Below are positions 608 to 37,355 of a DNA stretch of 64,000 nt, one piece after another. The position numbers and the translations under genes were made by a program. Below the pieces are notes generated by a model. That model saw nothing but the letters and a program-made list of their open reading frames with translations. It was not told where the DNA came from and searched no databases. The stretch is from Mycobacteriales bacterium (GTDB lineage: Bacteria; Actinomycetota; Actinomycetes; Mycobacteriales; QHCD01), in assembly GCA_036497565.1 (NCBI GenBank), contig DASXJE010000006.1:1-64000 (forward strand), read 5' to 3'. Each line of letters opens with the position of its first letter. Position 1 is the stretch's first letter.

Positions 608-1710
608 CGATGTGCCGCAGCGGCGTAGAGCTGGTCGGGCGCGACCGCGCCGACGATCAGCCGTCCGTCGTTGGTGAACAGCGCGCTGACCAGCGACGAC
701 TTGAGCAGCATGCCGCTGCCCCAGGAACCGCTGACCCGCGGCAGCGAGCCCATCACGGTGGCCAGTTCACCATCGCCGTGGATCTTGGCCGGGAGCTTGA
801 CGTTGTGCAGGATCGCGACCTGCGTCCAGCCCTTGCCGACGACCTCCGGCTTCGCGTGGCCCGCACCGTGCCTGGCCTCGGGCCGCGCACCCGGTGCCCG
901 CTTGTGGGCGCCCGGCGTGGACGAATGCACCGTCGCGCCCGCGGGCGGGGTGAACCGGAACTCGCTGGCGTCCGGCTTCGCGAAACTGACATGGGTGAAG
1001 CCCACCTCGAAGGCCGGCTTGACCGTGGAGCCCTTGGAGTAGACCTGCACCCGCAGCGGCACGTGGGTCGCGGAGTCGATCGCGATCCGCACCGAGCCGA
1101 TCAGCGACCGGGCGTCGCGCGGAGCGAGCGTCATCTCGTACGACGGCCGCCCGGCGACGGTCGCCGTACCGGCGGTCGAGACCTTGGTGGACGGGCTGAT
1201 CGCCGCAAGTGCCCTGTTGGCGGCCTGCTGCGGAGTCATGGCCCCCTGCTGGGAGGGCATGGCGTCGGCGTGGTGGCCGCTCATCCGCGCCGGCAGCAGC
1301 GTGTGGCTGGCCGAGTTGGAGGTGCTCGACCATTGCCACAGGTCGCGCCCGGAGCGGATCACGTCGGATTCGCCGAGCGTCCCGAGCAGCGCGATGCGCA
1401 CCTTGTCCGGGCCGGCGTACCAGACCCGCAGGGTGTGCGAGCCGGTGATCAGCGAGGACAGGTTGGAGCTGCCCTGCCCACCGTTCGTCGACGGCAGCGA
1501 CGGCAGGCCGAGATCGGCGTTCTGAACCACCGTTCCCGAAATGCCGGTTACGTGCGCGGTCTGTACCTCAGCCAGCAGCGCTGCCGCGGTCTTGTGCGGC
1601 AGCGGCGGCGAGGCGTTGGCCGAGAGCGCGTCGCCGATACCGACGCCCGCGCCGATGACGACCGCCACCGCGACCGGCGCGGTCCATCGACGAGCTCGGG
1701 CTGACAGCAC
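604..1710 (-). CDS. LolA/RseB-like exported protein
   Basis: About 368 residues. An N-terminal hydrophobic segment (around residues 10-30, ending in ALSANA) suggests a signal anchor or Sec signal. The rest resembles the LolA/RseB fold found in actinobacterial DUF2092-type proteins: a long stretch of beta-strands with a Trp-rich patch (RDLWQW) and a C-terminal half rich in Pro/Ala/His. I chose the GTG at 1710 because AGAGGGG precedes it at sensible distance; an upstream extension would run into the divergent response regulator. It is the first gene of a unit with the ABC ATPase. Binding of a lipid or lipoprotein is inferred from the fold only. Confidence 0.75.
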   Translation of the reverse strand: MLSARARRWTAPVAVAVVIGAGVGIGDALSANASPPLPHKTAAALLAEVQTAHVTGISGTVVQNADLGLPSLPSTNGGQGSSNLSSLITGSHTLRVWYAGPDKVRIALLGTLGESDVIRSGRDLWQWSSTSNSASHTLLPARMSGHHADAMPSQQGAMTPQQAANRALAAISPSTKVSTAGTATVAGRPSYEMTLAPRDARSLIGSVRIAIDSATHVPLRVQVYSKGSTVKPAFEVGFTHVSFAKPDASEFRFTPPAGATVHSSTPGAHKRAPGARPEARHGAGHAKPEVVGKGWTQVAILHNVKLPAKIHGDGELATVMGSLPRVSGSWGSGMLLKSSLVSALFTNDGRLIVGAVAPDQLYAAAAHR

Positions 1711-1816
1711 CCAAACCACCCCTCTTCGTGAGATTCGCCTATTCGGTGTTCGTGACGTCATGCTGCCCGTTGCATGCTGTGAGGAGCCTGAGAGGTCGAT
1801 CCTAAGAGGAGAAACG

Positions 1817-2494
1817 GTGCGCCTGTTGGTCGTCGACGACGAGGTCCGCCTGGCCGACGCGCTCCGGCGCGGCCTGGAGGCGGAGGGCTTCGTCGTCGAC
1901 GTGGCCCACACCGGCCCGGACGGGCTGCACCTGGCACGAGAGCACACCTACGACGCGATCGTTCTCGACGTGATGCTGCCCGGCCTCTCCGGCTACCGGA
2001 TCGCCCGCGCGCTGCGCGCCGAGGACAACTGGGTGCCGGTGCTCATGCTCACCGCGAAGGACGGCGAGTACGACGAAGCCGACGGGCTCGACGTCGGCGC
2101 CGACGACTACCTGACCAAGCCGTTCTCCTTCGTCGTCCTCATCGCCCGGCTGCGCGCCCTGCTGCGCCGCGCGGCGCCGCCGCGCCCGGCCGTCCTCGCC
2201 GCGGGCGACCTCACGCTCGACCCGGCGAGCCGGCAGGTGTCGCGCGCCGGGGCCGACGTACCGCTGACCCCGAAGGAGTTCGCGCTGCTGGAGTATCTGC
2301 TCCGGCACGCCGGCGACGTGGTGTCGAAGACGGACATCCTCACCCACGTCTGGGACGCCCACTACGACGGCGACCCCAACATCGTCGAGGTCTACATCGG
2401 CTACCTGCGCCGCAAGCTCGACACGCCCTTCGGCCGGCGCGGCCTGCAGACGGTGCGGGGCGCCGGCTACCGGCTGGCGGTCGACGGTGGCTGA
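1817..2494 (+). CDS. OmpR-family response regulator
   Basis: 225 residues. The receiver domain has the acidic pair DD near residues 7-8, phospho-acceptor D51 (VLDVMLPG) and K101 (LTKPF). A winged-helix DNA-binding domain follows (LTPKEFALLEYLL, then the recognition region NIVEVYIGYLRRKL and a final GAGYRL). The GTG start at 1817 is fixed by AGAGGAG just upstream and by the family N-terminus RLLVVDDE. The histidine kinase gene follows 11 bases later, so the pair is one operon. It is transcribed away from the LolA-like/ABC unit across a 106-base divergent region, which makes that unit a plausible target. Confidence 0.95.
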   Translation: MRLLVVDDEVRLADALRRGLEAEGFVVDVAHTGPDGLHLAREHTYDAIVLDVMLPGLSGYRIARALRAEDNWVPVLMLTAKDGEYDEADGLDVGADDYLTKPFSFVVLIARLRALLRRAAPPRPAVLAAGDLTLDPASRQVSRAGADVPLTPKEFALLEYLLRHAGDVVSKTDILTHVWDAHYDGDPNIVEVYIGYLRRKLDTPFGRRGLQTVRGAGYRLAVDGG

Positions 2495-2505
2495 CCGGCG
2501 CGACG

Positions 2506-3951
2506 ATGGCTGAGAGCTCCGCCGCGGAGCGGTCGCTCGGGCAGCGATCGGTCGGGCGGCCGGCGTGGTGGCAGACCCGCAGCCTGCGTGCCCGGCTCAC
2601 CGTGCTCGCCACCTCGGTGCTGGCTATCGGCCTCGGCGCCGGAGCCCTGCTGCTCGTCGTCTCGCTCGGCCACAGCCTGACCACCGCGCTGGATGCGAGC
2701 GCCCGACGTACCGCCCAGGACGTGGCGGTCCTGGTGAACAACGGCGAGGCGCTGCCCGAGCCGCTGCCGGTCGGTGACGGCAACACCGTCGTCGTGCAGG
2801 TGATCGACTCCGCGGGACGCGTCGACGCCGCATCCGCGGGTGCCGACCACCTGGTGCCGCTGCTTCCCCCTCCGGCGTTGGCCGAGATCCGGGCGGGAAA
2901 GATCCTGCAGGTGTCCGGCGACCAGGCCGGGGTGACCGGCTCGCTGCGGGTGCTCGGAGTGGCCGCCGGACCGCGTGGCGACCGCCGGACGGTGGTGGTG
3001 GCCGTCGACGCGAGCCAGACCGGCGAGAGCGTGCGGGTGCTGCGGACGGCGCTGTTCATCGGCGTACCGATTCTGTTGGTGCTGCTGGCACTGCTGTCGT
3101 GGTACGTCGTCGGCCGGGCGCTGCGGCCGGTCGAGGAGCTGCGGCGCGGAGCCGAGGAGATCACCGGGGCGGGCGGGGCCCGGCAGCTCCCGGTCGCCGC
3201 CAGCGACGACGAGGTGCATCGGCTCGCGCTGACCCTCAACGACATGCTCGGGCGGCTGGACGCGGCGAGCGCGCAACAGCGGGCGTTCGTCGCCGACGCC
3301 GCGCACGAGTTGCGCAGCCCGCTGGCCAGCCTGCGCACCCAGCTCGAGGTGGCCCACCACCTCGGTGACCGGGCCGACTGGCCGCGCACCGCGGACGGCG
3401 CGCTCGTCGACGTCGCCCGGCTGTCCCGGCTCATCGACGACCTGCTGCTCCTGGCCCGGATGGACGGCGGCGGATCCGCGCAACAGTTGCGTCGTACGCC
3501 GGTCGACGTGACGGCACTGGTCGCCGACTGCGCCACGGGCTACGCGGGCGCGCGGGTGCCGGTCGAGATGGCGTCGACCGCGCCGGCGATCTCCGACGCC
3601 GACCCCGACGCAATGCGCCGGGTCGTGGTCAACCTGCTGGACAACGCCGTACGGCACGCGACCTCGCGGGTGACGGTCTCCGTCGCACTGACGGACGACG
3701 GCGTCACCATCACCGTCGCCGACGACGGGCCCGGGATCCCGGTCGCCGACCGCGATCGGGTCTTCGACCGATTCACCCGGCTGGACGACGCCCGCAGCCG
3801 CGACGCCGGCGGCACCGGGCTGGGTCTGGCCATCGTCCGCGAACTGGTGCAGGCGCACGGCGGGCGGATCGACCTCGCCGACGCCGGCCCCGGCCTGCGA
3901 GCCGTCGTACACCTCCCGCCGCCCGTCCACCGCCGACGCCCCCTCCCGTGA
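2506..3951 (+). CDS. Sensor histidine kinase (HAMP-HisKA-HATPase)
   Basis: 481 residues, cognate kinase of the preceding regulator. Two membrane helices (about residues 30-55 and 180-205) bracket an extracytoplasmic sensor. A HAMP segment (RPVEELRRGAEEI) follows, then the H box FVADAAHELRSPLASL with phospho-acceptor His267, N box NLLDNAVRHA and glycine boxes DDGPGIP and GTGLGLAIV. The last residues (RRRPLP) and the TGA stop lie inside a dispersed inverted repeat, so the C-terminus seems to have been shaped by repeat insertion. The signal sensed is unknown. Confidence 0.95.
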   Translation: MAESSAAERSLGQRSVGRPAWWQTRSLRARLTVLATSVLAIGLGAGALLLVVSLGHSLTTALDASARRTAQDVAVLVNNGEALPEPLPVGDGNTVVVQVIDSAGRVDAASAGADHLVPLLPPPALAEIRAGKILQVSGDQAGVTGSLRVLGVAAGPRGDRRTVVVAVDASQTGESVRVLRTALFIGVPILLVLLALLSWYVVGRALRPVEELRRGAEEITGAGGARQLPVAASDDEVHRLALTLNDMLGRLDAASAQQRAFVADAAHELRSPLASLRTQLEVAHHLGDRADWPRTADGALVDVARLSRLIDDLLLLARMDGGGSAQQLRRTPVDVTALVADCATGYAGARVPVEMASTAPAISDADPDAMRRVVVNLLDNAVRHATSRVTVSVALTDDGVTITVADDGPGIPVADRDRVFDRFTRLDDARSRDAGGTGLGLAIVRELVQAHGGRIDLADAGPGLRAVVHLPPPVHRRRPLP

Positions 3952-4007
3952 TCAAGAGGGGATTCGTACGGCGTTTCGTGTCGGAACCCCCTCTTGATCA
4001 TGGGGGG
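3942..4007. repeat. Dispersed intergenic inverted repeat, copy A
   Basis: Core arms TGATCAAGAGGGG (3949-3961) and CCCCTCTTGATCA (3988-4000) are perfect complements, extended outward by C- and G-runs. The spacer contains GTACGGCGTTTCG. The left arm supplies the stop codon of the histidine kinase gene. Arms and spacer closely match the copy at 51073-51132 and are related to those at 15385 and 61421. It could fold as a strong hairpin and act as a terminator, or be a REP-like element; no U-tract is present. Confidence 0.85.
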
Positions 4008-4066
4008 AGCGAGGGCTAAGCGGGAGGGCCGGCGGTGGTCGGGCGCGGTGCTCCTAGGCTGGCGGC

Positions 4067-5044
4067 ATGCATGCGATCACGCTGCCGTCCTTCGGCGGCC
4101 CCGAGGCGCTGACCTGGGCCGAGGTACCCGACCCGAAGCCCGACACCGGCGAGGTACTGATCGACGTCGCCGCGACCGCGGTCAATCGGGCCGACATCAT
4201 GCAGCGACAGGGTCACTACCCGCCGCCGCCCGGCGCGCCGCCGTACCCGGGGCTGGAGTGCAGCGGACGGATCGCCGCCCTGGGCGACGGCGTCACCGGG
4301 TGGGAGGTCGGCGACGAGGTGTGCGCCCTGCTCGCCGGTGGCGGGTACGCCGAAAAGGTCGCCGCGCCGGCCGGGCAGCTGCTTCCGGTGCCGGCCGGCG
4401 TGTCCGTCGTCGACGCCGCCGCGCTGCCCGAGGTGACCTGCACGGTGTGGTCGAACGTCTTCATGGTCGCCCGGCTGCAGCCCGGCGAGGTCTTCTGCGT
4501 GCACGGCGGGTCGAGCGGCATCGGGACCATGGCGATCCAGCTCGCCGCTCGCCACGGTGCCCGGGTGTTCTGCACCGCCGGTACGCCGGAGAAGCGGGCC
4601 CGCTGCCGCGAGTTGGGCGCCGAGGTGGCGATCGACTACCGCGAGGAGGACTTCGTCGAGCGGATCGCCGACGAGACCGGTGGTCATGGCGCCGACGTGA
4701 TCCTGGACAACATGGGGGCGTCGTACCTGCCCCGCAACATGAAGGCGCTCGCCGCCGACGGCCGCCTCGTGGTGCTCGGCATGCAGGGCGGCCGTACCGG
4801 CGAGCTCGACCTTGGCGCGCTCATGGCCAAGCGCGCCATGGTCACCGCGACCGGTCTGCGCGCCCGGTCACGGGAGAGCAAGGCGGAGATCGTCGCCGCG
4901 GTGCTCGCGAACGTCTGGCCGGCGATCGAGGCGGGCGAGGTTCACCCCGTGATCGACCGGAAGCTGCCCGTGAAGGACGCGGCGGAAGCGCACCGCATCA
5001 TCGAGTCCGGTGGTCACGTGGGCAAGGTGCTGCTCACGGTCTGA
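4067..5044 (+). CDS. NAD(P)H:quinone oxidoreductase, zinc-free MDR family (PIG3-like)
   Basis: 325 residues, the usual length for quinone oxidoreductases of the medium-chain dehydrogenase/reductase superfamily. The N-terminal catalytic domain shows NRADIMQRQGHYPPPPG, a PIG3/TP53I3-type signature, and lacks the zinc-ligand set of alcohol dehydrogenases. The nucleotide-binding motif GGSSGIGTMAIQLA lies near residues 146-159. The expected role is NADPH-dependent reduction of quinones or other electrophiles in the cytosol. It is monocistronic between the repeat at 3942 and the convergent lipoprotein gene, whose stop lies 12 bases beyond. Confidence 0.9.
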   Translation: MHAITLPSFGGPEALTWAEVPDPKPDTGEVLIDVAATAVNRADIMQRQGHYPPPPGAPPYPGLECSGRIAALGDGVTGWEVGDEVCALLAGGGYAEKVAAPAGQLLPVPAGVSVVDAAALPEVTCTVWSNVFMVARLQPGEVFCVHGGSSGIGTMAIQLAARHGARVFCTAGTPEKRARCRELGAEVAIDYREEDFVERIADETGGHGADVILDNMGASYLPRNMKALAADGRLVVLGMQGGRTGELDLGALMAKRAMVTATGLRARSRESKAEIVAAVLANVWPAIEAGEVHPVIDRKLPVKDAAEAHRIIESGGHVGKVLLTV

Positions 5045-5056
5045 CCGCAGCGCGGA

Positions 5057-5686
5057 TCACCCGCCGGTCGGCGCCTTCACCACGACGGTCTGGTTCCAGT
5101 CGGTGAACACGATCGATCCGCTGCTCCCGCTCGACTTGCTCGCGCTGATCTTCAACGGGTACGGATGTGCCGTGTTGTTCGCGACGAACAGCGTGCCCTG
5201 GCCGCTGCTGTCCTTGAGCTGAACGGCATCCTGACCGTTGACGGTGGCAGTCCCCGCCTTCTTGATGGTGCCCTTCGGCTTGAGCGCCTGGTTGATCAGC
5301 GTGTTCTTGTCGACGATGCCGGCGAGCTGACTGGCACTGCTGCTGCCGATCGGCAACTTGACGTACGGCGAGCCGCCCTGCTTGACGTAGAGCTGGCTGC
5401 CGACCTTGACGACGTTGATCGTCCGGCCCTGCGCCTGCACACTTCCGGTCGCGTCGCCCTGCTTGTTCAGTTGCAGGTTAAGGGTCACCGTCTGACCGGA
5501 CTTGCCGACGCTTCCCTTGACCCGCACCGACGATGCCGACTGGGCCGCCTGCTTGGCGTCGGACAGGATGGTCGACGCAGACTTCGACGCTTCGCCGGAA
5601 TTAGCCGACGCGGTCGTTCCGCTGCTGCATCCGGCAGCGATCAACGCACCGAGAACGGCCAGCGCGAGAAGAGGTTTCCGGGACAT
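5057..5686 (-). CDS. LppX/LprG-like lipoprotein
   Basis: 209 residues. A lipoprotein signal peptide ends in the lipobox LIAAGC with Cys20 as the predicted lipidation site. The mature part has alternating strand patterns (VKVGSQLYVKQGG, AVQLKDSSGQGTLFVANN) typical of the LolA-like fold of actinobacterial LprG/LppX proteins, which carry lipids across the periplasm. It ends near the convergent oxidoreductase gene. Upstream, between it and bpa, lies the double palindrome at 5848-5925. The cargo is unknown. Confidence 0.75.
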   Translation of the reverse strand: MSRKPLLALAVLGALIAAGCSSGTTASANSGEASKSASTILSDAKQAAQSASSVRVKGSVGKSGQTVTLNLQLNKQGDATGSVQAQGRTINVVKVGSQLYVKQGGSPYVKLPIGSSSASQLAGIVDKNTLINQALKPKGTIKKAGTATVNGQDAVQLKDSSGQGTLFVANNTAHPYPLKISASKSSGSSGSIVFTDWNQTVVVKAPTGG

Positions 5687-6000
5687 GCGTACCTCCGGTG
5701 CCGCACAGGGAGGTCCTGCATCGCCAGACGGCGAAACGAGGGTTCGCTGAGCCCCTACAACGACAAATTGGACACTACCCGCGCTTTACTTGCGCGTCAG
5801 GGAGATGCCCGAACTGCCCGCCGCCCCGACCGCTGCCCGGCCCTTGCCCAAAACCCACTACTAGTGGGTTTTGGTCCACGACACGCCGTACGCGATGTCC
5901 ACAACCCACTAGTAGTGGGTTTTGTCCACGGTCTTCGATCAGCTACGGCGAACCTGTGGGGTGGTGTGCGGCCCCGGAACGGGTGGGTGAGGATGGAGGC
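5687..6000. promoter_or_regulatory. Divergent intergenic region, lipoprotein gene / bpa
   Basis: 314 bases without a convincing gene, holding the 5' regions of the lipoprotein gene (minus) and bpa (plus). The conspicuous content is the pair of palindromes at 5848-5874 and 5901-5925, described separately. A purine-rich GGATGGAGGC directly precedes the bpa ATG. No clear -35/-10 pair was recognised. Confidence 0.5.
5848..5925. repeat. Nested double palindrome CCCACTA-N-TAGTGGG
   Basis: First unit 5848-5874: arms CCAAAACCCACTA and TAGTGGGTTTTGG are perfect around a single C. Second unit 5901-5925: ACAACCCACTA, G, TAGTGGGTTTTGT. The two units are also near reverse complements of each other, separated by a spacer containing ACACGCCGTACG, which resembles the spacer core of the 15385 element. 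This could be a pair of operators for a dimeric repressor controlling the lipoprotein gene or bpa, or a cruciform-type repeat. Confidence 0.85.
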
Positions 6001-6558
6001 ATGAGCGAACAGCAGGGACAACGTGTAGTGGTGGTCGGACCGGACGGGCAACCGATGGGTCAGATGCCGTTCGGCCAAGGCACCGGAGCGGCGGGCGACG
6101 TGGCGGCGATGGCCGAGGGCGATCATCCCGAGGTCAGCGATCTGGTGGAGCAGCCGGCCAAGGTGATGCGGATCGGCACGATGATCAAGCAGTTGCTCGA
6201 GGAGGTGCGTGCGGCTCCCCTCGACGAAGCCAGTCGGCAACGACTCAAGGAGATCCACGCATCGTCCGTCCGCGAACTCGAACAGGGTCTCGCCCCCGAG
6301 CTGCGCGAAGAGCTCGAGCGCCTTTCGCTGCCCTTCTCCGACGACAAGACGCCGTCGGATTCGGAACTGCGCATCGCCCAGGCGCAGCTGGTCGGCTGGC
6401 TCGAGGGTTTGTTCCACGGCATTCAGACCGCGTTGTTCGCGCAGCAGATGGCGGCGCGCGTGCAGCTCGAGGAGATGCGCCGACGCGCGCTGCCCGGCGG
6501 CTCGCAGCCCGGCGGCTCGATGCCGTCGCAGCCCGGCTCGACCGGGCAGTACCTCTAG
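6001..6558 (+). CDS. bpa: Bacterial proteasome activator Bpa
   Basis: 185 residues. Matches the Bpa (PafE) family: an extended N-terminus, a central helical bundle (EQPAKVMRIGTMIKQLLEEV and the segment through IQTALFAQQMAARVQLEEMRRR), a Gly/Pro/Ser-rich linker and the C-terminal GQYL. In mycobacteria the C-terminal GQYL docks in the alpha-ring pockets of the 20S proteasome to open the gate without ATP; the ring stimulates breakdown of unfolded proteins such as HspR. Its presence implies the organism has a 20S proteasome. The start is the ATG after GGATGGAGGC. Its stop overlaps that of the convergent heparinase-like gene in CTAG. Confidence 0.97.
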   Translation: MSEQQGQRVVVVGPDGQPMGQMPFGQGTGAAGDVAAMAEGDHPEVSDLVEQPAKVMRIGTMIKQLLEEVRAAPLDEASRQRLKEIHASSVRELEQGLAPELREELERLSLPFSDDKTPSDSELRIAQAQLVGWLEGLFHGIQTALFAQQMAARVQLEEMRRRALPGGSQPGGSMPSQPGSTGQYL

Positions 6559-8471
6559 CCCGCCGACATCGACAGCCGCCACGACCCGTCCCTGCCCGGG
6601 TTGCGGGCGGCGAGGACCGCGCGGTACAGCGTCGAGCCCCACACCGGAGTCAGTCGCCGGTCGTCGACGGCGATCGGCTCGACCGTGACGGAGACCGCGT
6701 CCTTGTCGTAGTCGACGGCCAGCGGGCGACCGCTCCCCGGCGGACGTACGACGATCCGGCCGGCGGTCGACGTATCCACGGGCCCGGAGCACATCAGATG
6801 CAGGACCACCGACTCGGGATCATGGTCGAGTTGCCAGCGCTCCTGCACCGTGATGCGCGAGTCGGCACGGTCGAGCGCCACCTCCCTGACCCATGAGGTG
6901 ATACCGGCCTCCGCGGGATAGGCGCCGGCGATGTCCTGCCTGATCGACGCGCTGTCGCCGTCCCCGGACTGGAACACGTCGGAAGCGCGATGGTCGCGGC
7001 CCGGCGCCTGATCGACGCCGTCCACCTCGGGCAGGTTGTGGTAGCTGCTGCGCATCGTCCAAATGCTGTATCGGTCCGGGCCGAAGGTCGCCCGGGTGTA
7101 TTCCCCGACCCCGACGTCGACCAGTGCCGGCTGACCGTCGACCGCCACGAGGAAGCTGCCGACGTCGTTGTGGTTGTGGCACTCGGCGTTGTGGCCGCCC
7201 TTCACCGCGACGAAGAGTCCGGCCGTGTCGCCGGCGCGCTCCCGGGCCACCCAGAGCTCGGTCTGCGGCCACCAGGCCGCGCGGACCAGCGGTGGCGGCT
7301 GGTTCGGTTCGGTCGCCCATTGCCGGTCGGTCAACGCCCGGAGCTGGCGCATCGGCGAGAGCACACCGCCCATGCTGACGGCCGGTCCGGCGCCGCGCAT
7401 GGACCGCGCATGCGCGCGCATCTCCGGGTCGCCGACCCGACCGCCGTAGGCGTAGAGCAGTTGCGGCTCGTTGGAACCGTCGGAGCGGGCTGATCCGTCG
7501 GCGACGTTGACATACCAGCTCTCGCCGATGTGGATGCGGTGCGGGTAGCGGCCGATCTCCCGGACGAGCGGCAGTTCGAACCCGTCGAGCGCTCCACCGC
7601 TGCTCTGCAGCAGCAGTTCCAGGCAGTCGAACAGCGACGCTCCGGCGCGCCACCAGTAGCTCTGCCCCTCGTCGCAGCCACCGTCCTCGGAGTAGCTGTC
7701 GAGAAAGACGTCGAGGCCTTCGAGCGCGCGCTGCACCGTGGTACGCCGGTCGTCCTCATCGTCGAGCAGCAGCGAGCAGGCCAGCACGTTGGAGTGGATC
7801 CACGGGTTCCAGTTGTTCACCGGGTGCCCGGGGCGACCCCGGCCGGACCAGTGCCAGTCCGTCGCCCGGAACGGCACCAGGACCCGTGTGCGCACCTCGT
7901 CCCGCAGCCGGCGCACCGACTCCGGGGCGCGAGCTGCGAGCTCCTCGCCGAGTACCTCGTGCACCCAGGCCATGAGCGCCGCCGTCTCGGCCGCGAAGAG
8001 GTCGACGAAGGGCCGGGCCGGGTCGGGCAGCCCGCCATCGGAGTGGGCGAACCGGTCGTGAGCCGGCACCGACCATGACGTCTCCTCGCACACCAGCCAC
8101 ACGCCGTCGAGTACGTCGTCGATCCACCGCGCGTCACCGGTGACGCAGGCCGCCTGCAGTGCCGCCGAGATTCGGTGCCGCCGGGCAAAGTATCGGGTCT
8201 CGTATTCCGACCGGTTGCCGGTCCGGAGGAACGCCAGCCACTGGGCCGCCGGAAGCACCGACCACTCGGCGGCCGACAACTCCTCGGCCCGATCGACGAT
8301 CGCCCGCGTGGTCGTGTCGTCCACGAACGACCAGGCAGGTCGGTCCGACACCGAGGGCAGCGGATGCCACGAGCCGGGTGCCGGAAGCTTCGCCAGCGCC
8401 GAACCACCGAGCATCTCGACGAGTCGGGAACCGGCCGGGGACACTCCCGACGGGACCTGGTCGGTCGCCAC
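6555..8471 (-). CDS. Heparinase II/III-family polysaccharide lyase
   Basis: 638 residues. The N-terminal half is a helical toroid-like region (RIHIGESWYVNVADGSAR within it). The C-terminal half has the heparinase II/III signature (GHNAECHNHNDVGSFLVAVDG) with the His/Asn/Asp cluster, then a beta-sandwich. Enzymes of this family cleave uronate-containing polysaccharides by beta-elimination. No signal peptide is visible, so it probably acts in the cytosol on imported oligosaccharides. The start is GTG at 8471, preceded by AGGAGG. It faces the divergent permease/binding-protein operon across a 227-base control region, so the two units look like one utilisation locus. Confidence 0.85.
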   Translation of the reverse strand: MATDQVPSGVSPAGSRLVEMLGGSALAKLPAPGSWHPLPSVSDRPAWSFVDDTTTRAIVDRAEELSAAEWSVLPAAQWLAFLRTGNRSEYETRYFARRHRISAALQAACVTGDARWIDDVLDGVWLVCEETSWSVPAHDRFAHSDGGLPDPARPFVDLFAAETAALMAWVHEVLGEELAARAPESVRRLRDEVRTRVLVPFRATDWHWSGRGRPGHPVNNWNPWIHSNVLACSLLLDDEDDRRTTVQRALEGLDVFLDSYSEDGGCDEGQSYWWRAGASLFDCLELLLQSSGGALDGFELPLVREIGRYPHRIHIGESWYVNVADGSARSDGSNEPQLLYAYGGRVGDPEMRAHARSMRGAGPAVSMGGVLSPMRQLRALTDRQWATEPNQPPPLVRAAWWPQTELWVARERAGDTAGLFVAVKGGHNAECHNHNDVGSFLVAVDGQPALVDVGVGEYTRATFGPDRYSIWTMRSSYHNLPEVDGVDQAPGRDHRASDVFQSGDGDSASIRQDIAGAYPAEAGITSWVREVALDRADSRITVQERWQLDHDPESVVLHLMCSGPVDTSTAGRIVVRPPGSGRPLAVDYDKDAVSVTVEPIAVDDRRLTPVWGSTLYRAVLAARNPGRDGSWRLSMSAG

Positions 8472-32852: not shown

Positions 32853-33569
32853 TCAGGAGGACGGCGCAACTCGAGCCGGATCGGCGACGATCTCTGCCGA
32901 AACGGCGGCCAGGGAGCGGCGGCTCGATCGAGCCTGGGCCCGCAAGCGTTGGTACGCAGTTCGCGCATCCACACCCGCCTGGGCCATCAGGATTCCCTTG
33001 GCCTGCTCGATGAGGGTGCGGGAATCCAAAGCGCGCTGGAGGTGGCCCGCCAACTCGGTCTGGCTCGACGCCTGCATCATGCTGGCGATGAGCAGCGCGG
33101 CCAGGTCGGTGAATGCCATCACCGCCAGTTCCCCTTCCGGCGTCCACGGATGGGCGTCCTCGGACACCACCGCGACGACACCGACGGGCTGCTGGTTGTA
33201 AGGAATCGGGCTCGCCATGACCGCGTGCACGCCATGGGCGACGGCGTCGGCGGCGAACAACGGCCACCGCGAGTCGGCGGCGAGGTCCTCGACGGTGATC
33301 AGCTGCCGCGAGTCGAAGGCGGCGATGCATGGGCCCTCGAAATGGGTGACCTGAAGGTCTTCGAGGTGGGCAAGCCGCTCATCGGACACCGCGACGTTGC
33401 GCAGGTGGTGCTGGTCGTCGGTCAGCATCAGCGCGGCACCGTCGACGTTGAAGACGGTATGCGTGGTCCGCACGATCTCGCGCATTCCGTCCTGCACGTT
33501 CATCTCCCCGAAGCGCAGCCGGCCGAGCTCCTCGAGAGCTCGCCGCACGTCGGGTATCGATACCGCCAT
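32853..33569 (-). CDS. GAF-ANTAR regulatory protein
   Basis: 238 residues (two more if the GTG at 33575 is used). An N-terminal GAF domain (VFNVDGAALMLTDDQ, FEGPCIAAFDSRQLITVEDLAADSRWP) is followed by an ANTAR RNA-binding domain (ALDSRTLIEQAKGILMAQAGVDARTAYQRLRAQAR). ANTAR proteins bind paired hairpins in nascent RNA and prevent termination. The GAF domain probably senses a small molecule or redox state. A similar protein is encoded at 42171. Confidence 0.93.
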   Translation of the reverse strand: MAVSIPDVRRALEELGRLRFGEMNVQDGMREIVRTTHTVFNVDGAALMLTDDQHHLRNVAVSDERLAHLEDLQVTHFEGPCIAAFDSRQLITVEDLAADSRWPLFAADAVAHGVHAVMASPIPYNQQPVGVVAVVSEDAHPWTPEGELAVMAFTDLAALLIASMMQASSQTELAGHLQRALDSRTLIEQAKGILMAQAGVDARTAYQRLRAQARSSRRSLAAVSAEIVADPARVAPSS

Positions 33570-33590: not shown

Positions 33591-35096
33591 TCAACTCGGG
33601 TCGATCGGGGCGTCCGGCCCGAGCAGGCCACGGATGTTGGCCTCCAGCTCGGCCGGGATGACGCCACCCACCGCGGTTACCGTCCCGTCGGCGTCGACGA
33701 AGACGTTGGTCGGCACGCCCCGGACCCCGACCTGGCGCGCGTAGTCACCGGGCTCGTCGACGAGCACCGTGCCGTCGATCCCCCACAGGTTGCAGAAGGC
33801 CTCTGCCTCGGCGTCGCTACCGGCGCCTTCCCACACGTTGACCATGACGATTTCCAGCCCCGACCGGGCGGTACGACGGCGCCACTGCTCCATGATCGGC
33901 GCGGCCGCGTTGCACGGTCCTCACCAGCTGGCGAAGAAGTTGAGGATGTACTTGCGCTCGGACCACTCCCGGCTGTGCCGCACCGTCTCGCTGCGCATCG
34001 CGGGGAGCGCGAACTCGGGCAGTCGCTGACCGACCAGCGGATGGGCGACGGGCACCGACGTGCCGGGCGCGGGTGGCCCGGTGGTGAGATCGTCCGCGAC
34101 GGTGAGGGTCCCCGAACCGGCGTTCGCCACCAGGATTCGGTTGCGGTGTTCGGGGTGGACCGAGACTCCGCCGGGTCCGTCGCTGACGGGGATCCTGGTC
34201 CACTCGTGACCGTCTACGCCGACGACGCTCACCGTGCCGTCGCCGCGGTTGCCCACGTAGAGCCGGTCCCCGTCCGGTCCCGCCACGAGTCCGACGGGTG
34301 CACTCCCGGTCGGGATCTCGTCGCCGGTGGTCTCGCCCTTGGCGGCGTCGATGCGCGAGACAGTCCCGGCGACGGAGTTGATCACATAGATCTCGTCGTC
34401 CACCGGGTTGACGGCCACCGCACAGGGCCCGGCCCCGACGTCGAGCCGCGCGACCGACTCGCGGGTGTCCAGATCGACGACGGTGACCGATGCGGCGAGG
34501 AAGTTGACGCAGTAGGCCCGTCCGTACCGCGGGTCGACCGCGACCGCTCCGGCGCCGATCTCCGCCGTCACGGTGTCCAGCACCGCGAGGGAGTCGAGGT
34601 CGACGATCGACATCGTGCCACCCATGGCGTTGCCGACGTAGAGGCGGCGGCCCGGGACGTCGATCGCCAGCCCGGCGGGATAGGTCCCCACGGGAATCTC
34701 GGCCACGACCTCGTCGCGCAGTGGATCGACGACGGAGAGCTGGTCCGAGCGGGCGTCCGCGGTGAAGATCAGGCCGCGCTGGTCGTCGATGGCGATGTCG
34801 ATCGGCTCGAGGCCGACGGCGACCTCGCCGATCCGGGTCATGGTGTCGAGGTCGACGACCGCGACCGCGTTCGAGCGGGAGCACGCGACGTACGCCCGAT
34901 CGGTACGCCGATCGACCACGACGCCCTCCGGGTCGTAGCCGACCCAGACCTCGCCGAGGATGCGCCACGGCTCCGCACCGGGCGGCCCGTCGACGAGGCA
35001 CGCGGCACCGTCGACGTCGGACTCCGAGGATTCCGGCCCGTCGCGAAGCCCCGCGTCCGCCGGACGTTCGCTGGAGTCGCTCATACCCTCTTCCAC
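33591..35096 (-). CDS. Probable selenoprotein: beta-propeller fused to a TlpA-like thioredoxin domain with UGA at the CxxC motif
   Basis: 501 residues if the in-frame UGA at 33921-33923 is read as selenocysteine (residue 392). Residues about 40-345 form YVTN/YncE-type beta-propeller repeats (VVDLDTMTRIGEVAVGLEPI and similar). From about 355 a TlpA/ResA-like thioredoxin domain begins: GQRLPEFALP, YILNFFASW, then UGA, then GPCNAAAPIMEQW, and a cis-Pro GVPTNVFVD. UGA replaces the first Cys of CGPC, and the frame stays open for 110 more codons with the rest of the fold intact. No signal peptide was seen. A redox role is likely. If not selenocysteine, it is a nonsense mutation. Starts: GTG 35096 or ATG 35084. 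Confidence 0.8.
33879..33902 (-). promoter_or_regulatory. Candidate bacterial SECIS hairpin after the UGA
   Basis: Counting from the base after UGA, GCGCC (19-23) pairs with GGCGC (38-42) around a 14-base loop GAUCAUGGAGCAGU containing GG. Distance and loop G fit the general plan of bacterial selenocysteine insertion elements, which are variable; weak extra pairing is possible outside. This is a hand fold in a GC-rich sequence and needs computation. Confidence 0.4.
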
Positions 35097-35352: not shown

Positions 35353-36366
35353 GTGTCGAATCACTTCACCGGCCTCAGTCTTGGGCCACCTCTCGGTGAC
35401 CAACGGCTCGACCTCTGCGATCTCTACGCCTTCCAGTCGCCGGCCGATCCGACGAGGACCGTGCTCATCCTCAACGCGAATCCGAATGCCGATGCACTCG
35501 ACCCCGATGCCATCTACCGGCTGAATATCGACAACGACGGCGACTACCGGACCGACGTTGCGTTGAGCTACGTATTTGGCCCACCACGTGACGGTGTGCA
35601 GACCGCGAGCGTCTTTCTCGCGAGAGGCGCCGAGGCACGATCGGAAGAGGCCGCGGGAAACACGATCTTCGCCGACGTCGAGGTCTCCTTCGACGCCGCC
35701 CCCAACATCGTCACGTCTGGGCCTTACACCTTCTTTGCGGGCGCTCGCAGCGATGCTTTCTTCTTCGACTACGACGGAATCGACAACCTCTTCGACACGT
35801 CCGGCGGCAGAAACTTCACGGCGCCGCACCTTGGCGGCAAGTCGCCGTGGACGGGCAAGGACTCCAACACGGAAGCCAATGTGTTCTCCACCGTGATCGA
35901 GCTACCCACGAGCGAGCTCGGCGGCGACCCGGAGATCCACATCTGGGGCCGGTGCAGCGTCCAGCGCGACGGCAAGCTGCTGCACGTCGACCGGGCCGGC
36001 CACCCGTCGGTCAGCAGCTTCTTCAACACCGACGAGACCAAAGAGGAATTCAACGCCAGCGAGCCGGTCAACGACCGCGCTCGCTGGCTGGATCAGTTCG
36101 TCCACCTGATGGGCCACACCGGCGGATACACGAGGGACGAAGCGATCGCCGCGATCGACGCCCACCGCATCCTTCCGGACACGCTGAATTTTGATCCGTC
36201 CCGGCCCGCGAAATATCCCAACGGGCGTGTCTTCAGCGACAATGTCATCGATCACCGCCTGGCCTTTCTCTCCAAGGGAGAAATTCCGCCGGACGGCCTC
36301 AGCCCGCACACCGACGTGCTCGAGGAGTTCCCCTATCTCGGAACGCCACACCCGGTCGTGCCCTAG
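35353..36366 (+). CDS. DUF4331 family protein
   Basis: 337 residues. Matches the DUF4331 pattern: an N-terminal HFTGLSLGPPLGDQRLDLCDLYAFQSP, LNANPNADA, YRLNIDNDGDYRTDVAL, and DAFFFDYDGI. The family is widespread in actinobacteria and of unknown function; the Asp/Asn-rich loop suggests cation binding. No clear signal peptide in this version, and many members are secreted. The GTG start is preceded by GAGGGAGATG. Its stop overlaps the stop of the convergent SLAC1/TehA gene in CTAG. Confidence 0.88.
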   Translation: MSNHFTGLSLGPPLGDQRLDLCDLYAFQSPADPTRTVLILNANPNADALDPDAIYRLNIDNDGDYRTDVALSYVFGPPRDGVQTASVFLARGAEARSEEAAGNTIFADVEVSFDAAPNIVTSGPYTFFAGARSDAFFFDYDGIDNLFDTSGGRNFTAPHLGGKSPWTGKDSNTEANVFSTVIELPTSELGGDPEIHIWGRCSVQRDGKLLHVDRAGHPSVSSFFNTDETKEEFNASEPVNDRARWLDQFVHLMGHTGGYTRDEAIAAIDAHRILPDTLNFDPSRPAKYPNGRVFSDNVIDHRLAFLSKGEIPPDGLSPHTDVLEEFPYLGTPHPVVP

Positions 36367-37355
36367 GCCACGGCAGGTTCTTCCGACGGGAGCCGCGGCA
36401 GGAACGTGTCGGTGGCCAGACCGATCCCGGTGCGGACGAGCAGGGCGCCGATCCCGGCGGTGATGACGGCGAGCAGGACGTAGGTCCAGTCCTGCTGCCG
36501 GTGGACGTGCTCGGCCGCCAACCACCGGATCGCGATCGTGAACGCAGCGGCGTAGGAGAAGGCGAACGCCCAGATGCCCGGCCCGAAGGGCACCCGCAGG
36601 TACGCCGGAATGAGTCGTACCTGCACGAGCAGCATCAGCAGGGCATAGCCGGCGAGGAGCAGGGCGACGACGTCGAGGTGGCCACCGTTGATCGCGAACC
36701 ACGCGTTGCCGGCGACCACCGGCGGAGCGAAGTCGATGGCGACCGTCGGCAGCAACGCGAGGGGCAGGGCCGGCTCGACGAACAACCGCAGCAGGAGGAT
36801 CGAGCCCAACAGCAACCAGCAGATCACGCCGTAGCCGAACATGAGATAGGCCAGGCTCCGGAAGCCGAGGGTGGCACTGCCGGCCGCGGCGATCAGTCCG
36901 CCCGCTGTGGTCGGGAGGAAGTAGCCGGGGTGCCATTGTTCCAGGCGCATGTCTGCGACGATCCACTCCCCGGTCAGCCAGCCCCCGATCAGGACCGTCC
37001 CGATCAATGCCACGACGAAGACCGCTTCCCCGAATCCCCGTGCCTGCCCGGCCAGGGTCACGCCCAGCATCATGGGGACCACGAAGGCGAGTGCCGTGAA
37101 CGGCGCGTGGACGGGATCCATCAGTTGTGTCCGCCACCGGGAACCGGCGATGACGTTGGCGGAGTAGCCGATCACCGTCACCAACCACACGGCGGCGGTC
37201 AGGATCCAGAGGACGTCGCCGGGCCAGGTCGGCACCCGCGTCAGCATCGATGCGGCCGACCAGGCCTGCGCGAGGCCGGCCAGTCCGAAGGAGATGCCGA
37301 AGACGTTCGCCCCCAGATGCAGCGGCGGTTTCCCGGCACTCGCCTGCACGCTCAT
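36363..37355 (-). CDS. SLAC1/TehA-family (TDT) membrane transporter
   Basis: 330 residues, about ten membrane helices. The start GANVFGISFGLAGLAQAW and the central WHPGYFLPTTAGGLIAA match the TDT/SLAC1/TehA family, anion channels linked to tellurite resistance, C4-dicarboxylate or chloride/sulfite transport. The family's pore-gating Phe probably corresponds to one in these helices but was not assigned. It stands alone, convergent with DUF4331. Confidence 0.88.
   Translation of the reverse strand: MSVQASAGKPPLHLGANVFGISFGLAGLAQAWSAASMLTRVPTWPGDVLWILTAAVWLVTVIGYSANVIAGSRWRTQLMDPVHAPFTALAFVVPMMLGVTLAGQARGFGEAVFVVALIGTVLIGGWLTGEWIVADMRLEQWHPGYFLPTTAGGLIAAAGSATLGFRSLAYLMFGYGVICWLLLGSILLLRLFVEPALPLALLPTVAIDFAPPVVAGNAWFAINGGHLDVVALLLAGYALLMLLVQVRLIPAYLRVPFGPGIWAFAFSYAAAFTIAIRWLAAEHVHRQQDWTYVLLAVITAGIGALLVRTGIGLATDTFLPRLPSEEPAVA

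Follow-up and report, generated by a model that had tools for sequence, protein, structure and literature searches.

ResA and TlpA proteins are exported and use a CxxC motif, and the propeller protein YncE is periplasmic and stands alone. In NHLRC2, the thioredoxin-like domain comes first, i.e. the order of the two domains is reversed relative to the protein described below. Selenocysteine (Sec) in place of the N-terminal Cys of CxxC is found in the UxxC thioredoxin-fold selenoproteins, such as the Prx-like thiol:disulfide oxidoreductase, the thiol-disulfide isomerase-like protein and SaoT, and a 2026 review that lists them counts 119 families or subfamilies of prokaryotic selenoproteins (PMC13188914). 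That review describes no propeller fusion among the 119 families, and our literature search found no propeller-selenoprotein. Here we describe a propeller-redoxin gene with an in-frame UGA, which on comparative evidence almost certainly represents a genuine selenoprotein family, the UGA being decoded as Sec by the organism's own SelB and tRNA-Sec with a downstream hairpin as the predicted SECIS element.

The window, i.e. the whole stretch of 64,000 nucleotides analyzed, contains on the minus strand of 33591-35096 a frame with one internal UGA (33923-33921), which reads KYILNFFASW-TGA-GPCNAAAPIMEQ...GVPTNVFVDADG...DPS-TGA. The UGA is located between FFASW and GPCN, precisely where the CxxC motif should have its first Cys (FFASW-U-GPC), with 391 open codons before it, counted from a GTG at 35096, and 109 after it. 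We prefer the ATG at 35084-35082, just after GGAAGAGG, to the alternative GTG start. The likely complete CDS is then 33591-35084, ending at its own stop TGA (33593-33591), and would encode 497 residues with predicted Sec388 as the leading residue of the UxxC active site and Cys391 (TGC, 33912-33914), the expected resolving residue. Ordinary ORF listing cuts the gene into two pieces, 33921-35096 (391 codons, ending at the UGA) and 33591-33893 (100 codons). A sequence-only reading of the window had placed the UGA at the first Cys of a CGPC motif, had claimed that the thioredoxin fold is intact beyond it and had predicted the split by gene finding; all of this was borne out, and the strand, unstated there, is minus. 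It had also proposed Sec at this position and named as checks a search for selA to selD, alignment of homologues and folding of the mRNA after the UGA, the results of which, positive or neutral in each case, are given below.

In the window, the selenoprotein gene has a GAF-ANTAR regulator directly downstream on the same strand (32856-33569) and a divergent DUF4331 gene on the plus strand (35353-36363), after which lies a gene for a SLAC1-type anion channel (36363-37355, minus). The Rfam scan of the 64-kb window gave no match, and no tRNA was found in it.

The C-terminal part (residues about 352-482; 33639-34031, minus) is a TlpA/ResA-like redoxin domain, and its matches to PF08534 (Redoxin, E = 1e-14, residues 355-477) and PF00578 (AhpC-TSA, E = 3.5e-13) run straight across the UGA. 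Sequence profiles of the C-terminus also retrieve ResA structures. The N-terminal part (residues about 40-332; 34089-34967, minus) matches YNCE/YVTN propellers (PF21783; TIGR02276, E = 6e-36). In NCBIfam 20.0 the repeat model TIGR02276 alone was over its cut-off and there was no model for the propeller-redoxin fusion. The propeller is evidently not YncE itself, because its score against the YncE equivalog (67.5 of 400 bits) is below the cut-off. An AlphaFold2 model built with 33 orthologues (mean pLDDT 89.9, pTM 0.88) has seven blades made up of 28 strands (residues 40-332, pLDDT mostly above 90), followed by a thioredoxin fold with a CxxC-type site, Sec replacing the first Cys, and a cis-Pro GVP loop. 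The closest solved folds of the propeller are YVTN and YncE propellers, the best being 1l0q. The 33 sequences show no evident signal peptide or membrane segment, and none has a hydrophobic N-terminus, the top 19-residue hydropathy within the first 60 residues being 1.30; because of this, the protein is probably cytosolic.

To what extent the UGA is conserved was determined with several searches. When 395 genomes of the class were searched with the redoxin domain, a single further close match was obtained (G230, 59% identical), which has one internal TGA and whose full gene is the same propeller-redoxin fusion. A second apparent case of an internal TGA (L037) was rejected, since it is just the tail of an ordinary WCAPC redoxin gene. 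A scan of about 85,000 species genomes with the patterns REW[SA]E[RK]KY and ILNFFASW, both of which leave out the Sec codon, gave 68 loci. In all of the 31 close loci (43-73% identity in the domain) the UGA is followed by GPCN and the propeller is fused; the 37 distant loci, at most 36% identical, encode ordinary Cys TlpA-like proteins. Together with G230 this gives 32 full-length orthologues, or 33 sequences with the window copy (L194, which is the same as L082 over the part read, was left out of the count). The two parts are always fused, and the UGA is kept in 32/32 at 42-66% identity over the full length. Thus the UGA is not a chance stop, as the Redoxin match spans it and it occupies the same codon in all 32 orthologues. 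A full-length profile recovered from 397 genomes of the phylum only the window copy and one more UGA copy, the latter equal to L082 in the part read. Neither the pattern scan nor the profile search found a Cys orthologue, with the proviso that Cys forms differing in both patterns could escape, and a plasmid search gave only 34%-identical TlpA proteins. Carriers are MAGs of Actinomycetes, Acidimicrobiaceae (one), Thermoleophilia and Acidobacteria (one), together with Streptomyces, Microtetraspora, Actinoallomurus and Planosporangium, all four of which include isolates. Across the 33 sequences E53, N194, C221, N279, the Sec position 388, Cys391 and Pro458 are invariant, and among the other propeller cysteines C68 (32/33) and C192 (31/33) are nearly so. 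Conserved Asn, Asp and Glu residues recur at matching blade positions of the propeller, and by the register of the strands C68 and C221 would be on one face close to the channel mouth, together with N194, N279 and N321. An untranslated tail would drift; the codons 3′ of the UGA are, from their substitution pattern, under purifying selection, dN/dS being 0.08-0.45 over 99 codons in 15 pairs, values that resemble those of the codons immediately preceding the UGA.

The source genome (G000; 4.81 Mb, 316 contigs) encodes the complete Sec machinery, all four of selA to selD being present: selC (tRNA-Sec, 78.6 bits, anticodon UCA), selD (382.8 bits), and selA and selB on contig C113, with fdhD and mobA genes after selB. 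SelA, FdhD and MobA of this contig were named from their sequence. The gene order in 845-7778 of this locus (L010) is selC, uppP-like and GMC-oxidoreductase-like genes on the opposite strand, and then selA, selB, fdhD and mobA. The formate dehydrogenase alpha gene of the same genome (G000:C179:8490-9227; L187 around 1820) also has an in-frame TGA and reads ARI-UGA-HSSTVPG. As this TGA is located at the known Sec site of FdhA, the organism very probably produces at least one well-known selenoprotein besides the propeller-redoxin.

Among the 32 carrier genomes, 29 have a tRNA-Sec at E ≤ 1e-10, compared with a base rate of 100 of 390 genomes (26%) in the class at a slightly stricter threshold, although the carriers are interrelated and the counts are not independent. 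The anticodon was UCA in 13/13 loci tested. Nearly all carriers have a SelB that is clear, these calls leaning on length and adjacency to tRNA-Sec because several actinobacterial SelB proteins fall below the curated cut-off. Two of the three carriers with no tRNA-Sec match have a SelB over the cut-off. The third, Streptomyces mexicanus Marseille-Q0842 (L067), has no clear selB and is the sole carrier seeming to be without both; its UGA gene is not obviously decayed but contains three unusual substitutions, with C192 changed to Ser, and a recent loss of the Sec system is possible. These data, together with the UGA in all close relatives and Cys in the distant TlpA-like ones, support the proposal of Sec at the first CxxC position. 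The sequence-only reading had further called the gene unusual for an actinomycete. This does not hold for Sec itself, considering the base rate above and the Sec-FdhA reported in a Streptomyces (PMC4498112); it does hold for the propeller-redoxin architecture, found here with no Cys form.

The orthologue adjoins a Sec-fdhA gene, in divergent orientation, in two MAGs (L063 and L064), with selA 7.8 kb away in the former. An MFS-like gene with the motif DGADKGT/DAADKGT lies <3 kb from the orthologue in four loci of Streptomyces, Microtetraspora and Actinoallomurus (L068, L073, L075 and L078). Clustering of the neighborhoods, which was noisy from spurious frames, gave no partner shared across clades and no conserved neighbor that names a substrate.

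Individual folds predict a stem-loop at about +15 to +51 from the first base of the UGA in most orthologues. In the window this candidate SECIS corresponds to 33873-33908 (minus), and the folding energy of the 44-nt stretch 33869-33912 is −16.2 kcal/mol. When the stretch from +12 to +54 was compared with shuffles among synonymous codons, which leave the protein unchanged, the mean z of the family was −1.94, with 19/33 sequences below −2 and 27/33 below −1, versus means of −0.17 to +0.63 for six other regions of the gene. For 49 Cys homologues the mean z of the +12 to +54 stretch was −0.31, and for the 20 of them whose GC exceeds 0.6 it was −0.45. The hairpin is supported at the family level, but the window copy alone is weak and not beyond its shuffles (z = +0.5 codon-preserving, −0.34 dinucleotide). 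A 13-pair consensus forms in 86% of cells, and since shuffled 3′ letters reach almost the same value, the make-up of the columns explains much of this pairing. Covariation in the hairpin is weak, the covariation score alone standing out (10 of 500 shuffles). We regard these results as supportive, not as proof, of a SECIS role.

One objection to a selenoprotein is that a nonsense mutation or a sequencing error split an ordinary propeller-redoxin gene. The assembly is in 316 contigs and UGA also serves as a normal stop here, being the gene's own terminator; still, the identical UGA recurs in 32 orthologues from independent genomes, isolates included, with purifying selection downstream, and we rejected this explanation as having a negligible probability. 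Reading of the UGA as Cys or Trp by a suppressor or non-canonical tRNA is scarcely more probable. Non-canonical UGA-reading tRNA-Cys species exist elsewhere, and since the site is that of a catalytic Cys, insertion of Cys would also work; however, canonical tRNA-Sec, SelA, SelB and SelD are present and tRNA-Sec co-occurs with the gene, and were Cys sufficient, one or another orthologue ought to have TGY, while none was found in the searches above.

Two other explanations concern the product rather than the codon. UGA-Sec decoding generally competes with termination, so that the gene might be a selenium-responsive switch that makes the 387-residue propeller as a second product and the redoxin only with selenium, a possibility compatible with Sec decoding. 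The propeller is a complete folded domain in the AlphaFold2 model without the C-terminal part, but the UGA lies about 36 residues into the redoxin fold, which would leave a broken part-domain on the truncated product, and the two parts are always fused; we consider a switch improbable, if less so than misreading. Somewhat higher, but still unlikely, we rank the possibility that the main activity resides in the propeller, and that the role of the Sec domain is just to protect or reload a metal or thiol site there. C221 (34422-34424) is at the start of a strand (E220-225) and C68 (34881-34883) at the end of strand 63-68, and C192 is nearly invariant as well; judged by the strand register, these strand ends should face the mouth of the channel. 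The propeller also gives weak scores against the hydrazine synthase beta and L-NosZ models, but these are far below the curated cut-offs and no metal-binding motif was shown.

Returning to the Sec redoxin as the active part, we propose that the protein is a cytosolic oxidoreductase that depends on Sec and docks its substrate on the propeller. The enzymatic role is putative, since no conserved gene neighbor points to a substrate. The propeller would dock a partner protein or a small substrate, Sec388 would act as a low-pKa nucleophile attacking a disulfide or an oxidized group, Cys391 would resolve the selenenylsulfide, and a cellular thiol system would regenerate the enzyme; we consider this specific mechanism of Sec388 and Cys391 somewhat favored. 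More tentatively, and with rather more doubt than belief, the genes may constitute an obligate selenoprotein family without a Cys counterpart, cytosolic redox proteins whose Sec redoxin acts on, or by way of, a propeller lined with thiols, distributed from Actinomycetota to Acidobacteriota and overlooked through the annotation split. All instances found have Sec and none has Cys, suggesting that the reaction really needs selenium, and chemistry at C68, C192 and C221 of the propeller would represent a Sec-dependent reaction of a new kind. The family would add a selenoprotein architecture to bacteria whose usual selenoprotein is formate dehydrogenase, and standard annotation would cut a real family into a truncated propeller and a headless redoxin. 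Since carriers include culturable Streptomyces such as S. anandii and S. kebangsaanensis, the proposal is directly testable.

Compared with known systems, the protein resembles the UxxC thioredoxin-fold selenoproteins of the review in having Sec for the N-terminal Cys of CxxC, encoded by UGA, in carriers with Sec machinery, and may be a new variant among them. The main doubt concerns its entry "Redoxin family protein" (PF08534, UxxC; HEU0032618.1 and MBA3499694.1), which, compared by the table entry, might overlap the C-terminal domain (PMC13188914). NHLRC2 likewise has a thioredoxin-like domain and a beta-propeller in one chain (PMC6107167), but by its description the propeller is of the NHL type and no Sec is described. 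With YncE and YVTN propellers the N-terminal part shares seven blades with YVTN repeats, and differs from YncE, apart from its score against the equivalog, in the conserved Cys residues, the redoxin tail and the probably cytosolic location. The TlpA/ResA/CcmG thiol-disulfide oxidoreductases have the same domain by sequence (PF08534, PF00578 and the ResA structures) and the cis-Pro GVP loop; in contrast, here identity to Cys relatives is at most about 37%, Sec replaces Cys, a propeller precedes the domain, and the typical export or membrane anchoring is not seen, with no evident signal peptide or transmembrane segment. As judged from these features, the protein appears to work like a ResA domain, yet is not a standard exported ResA/TlpA.
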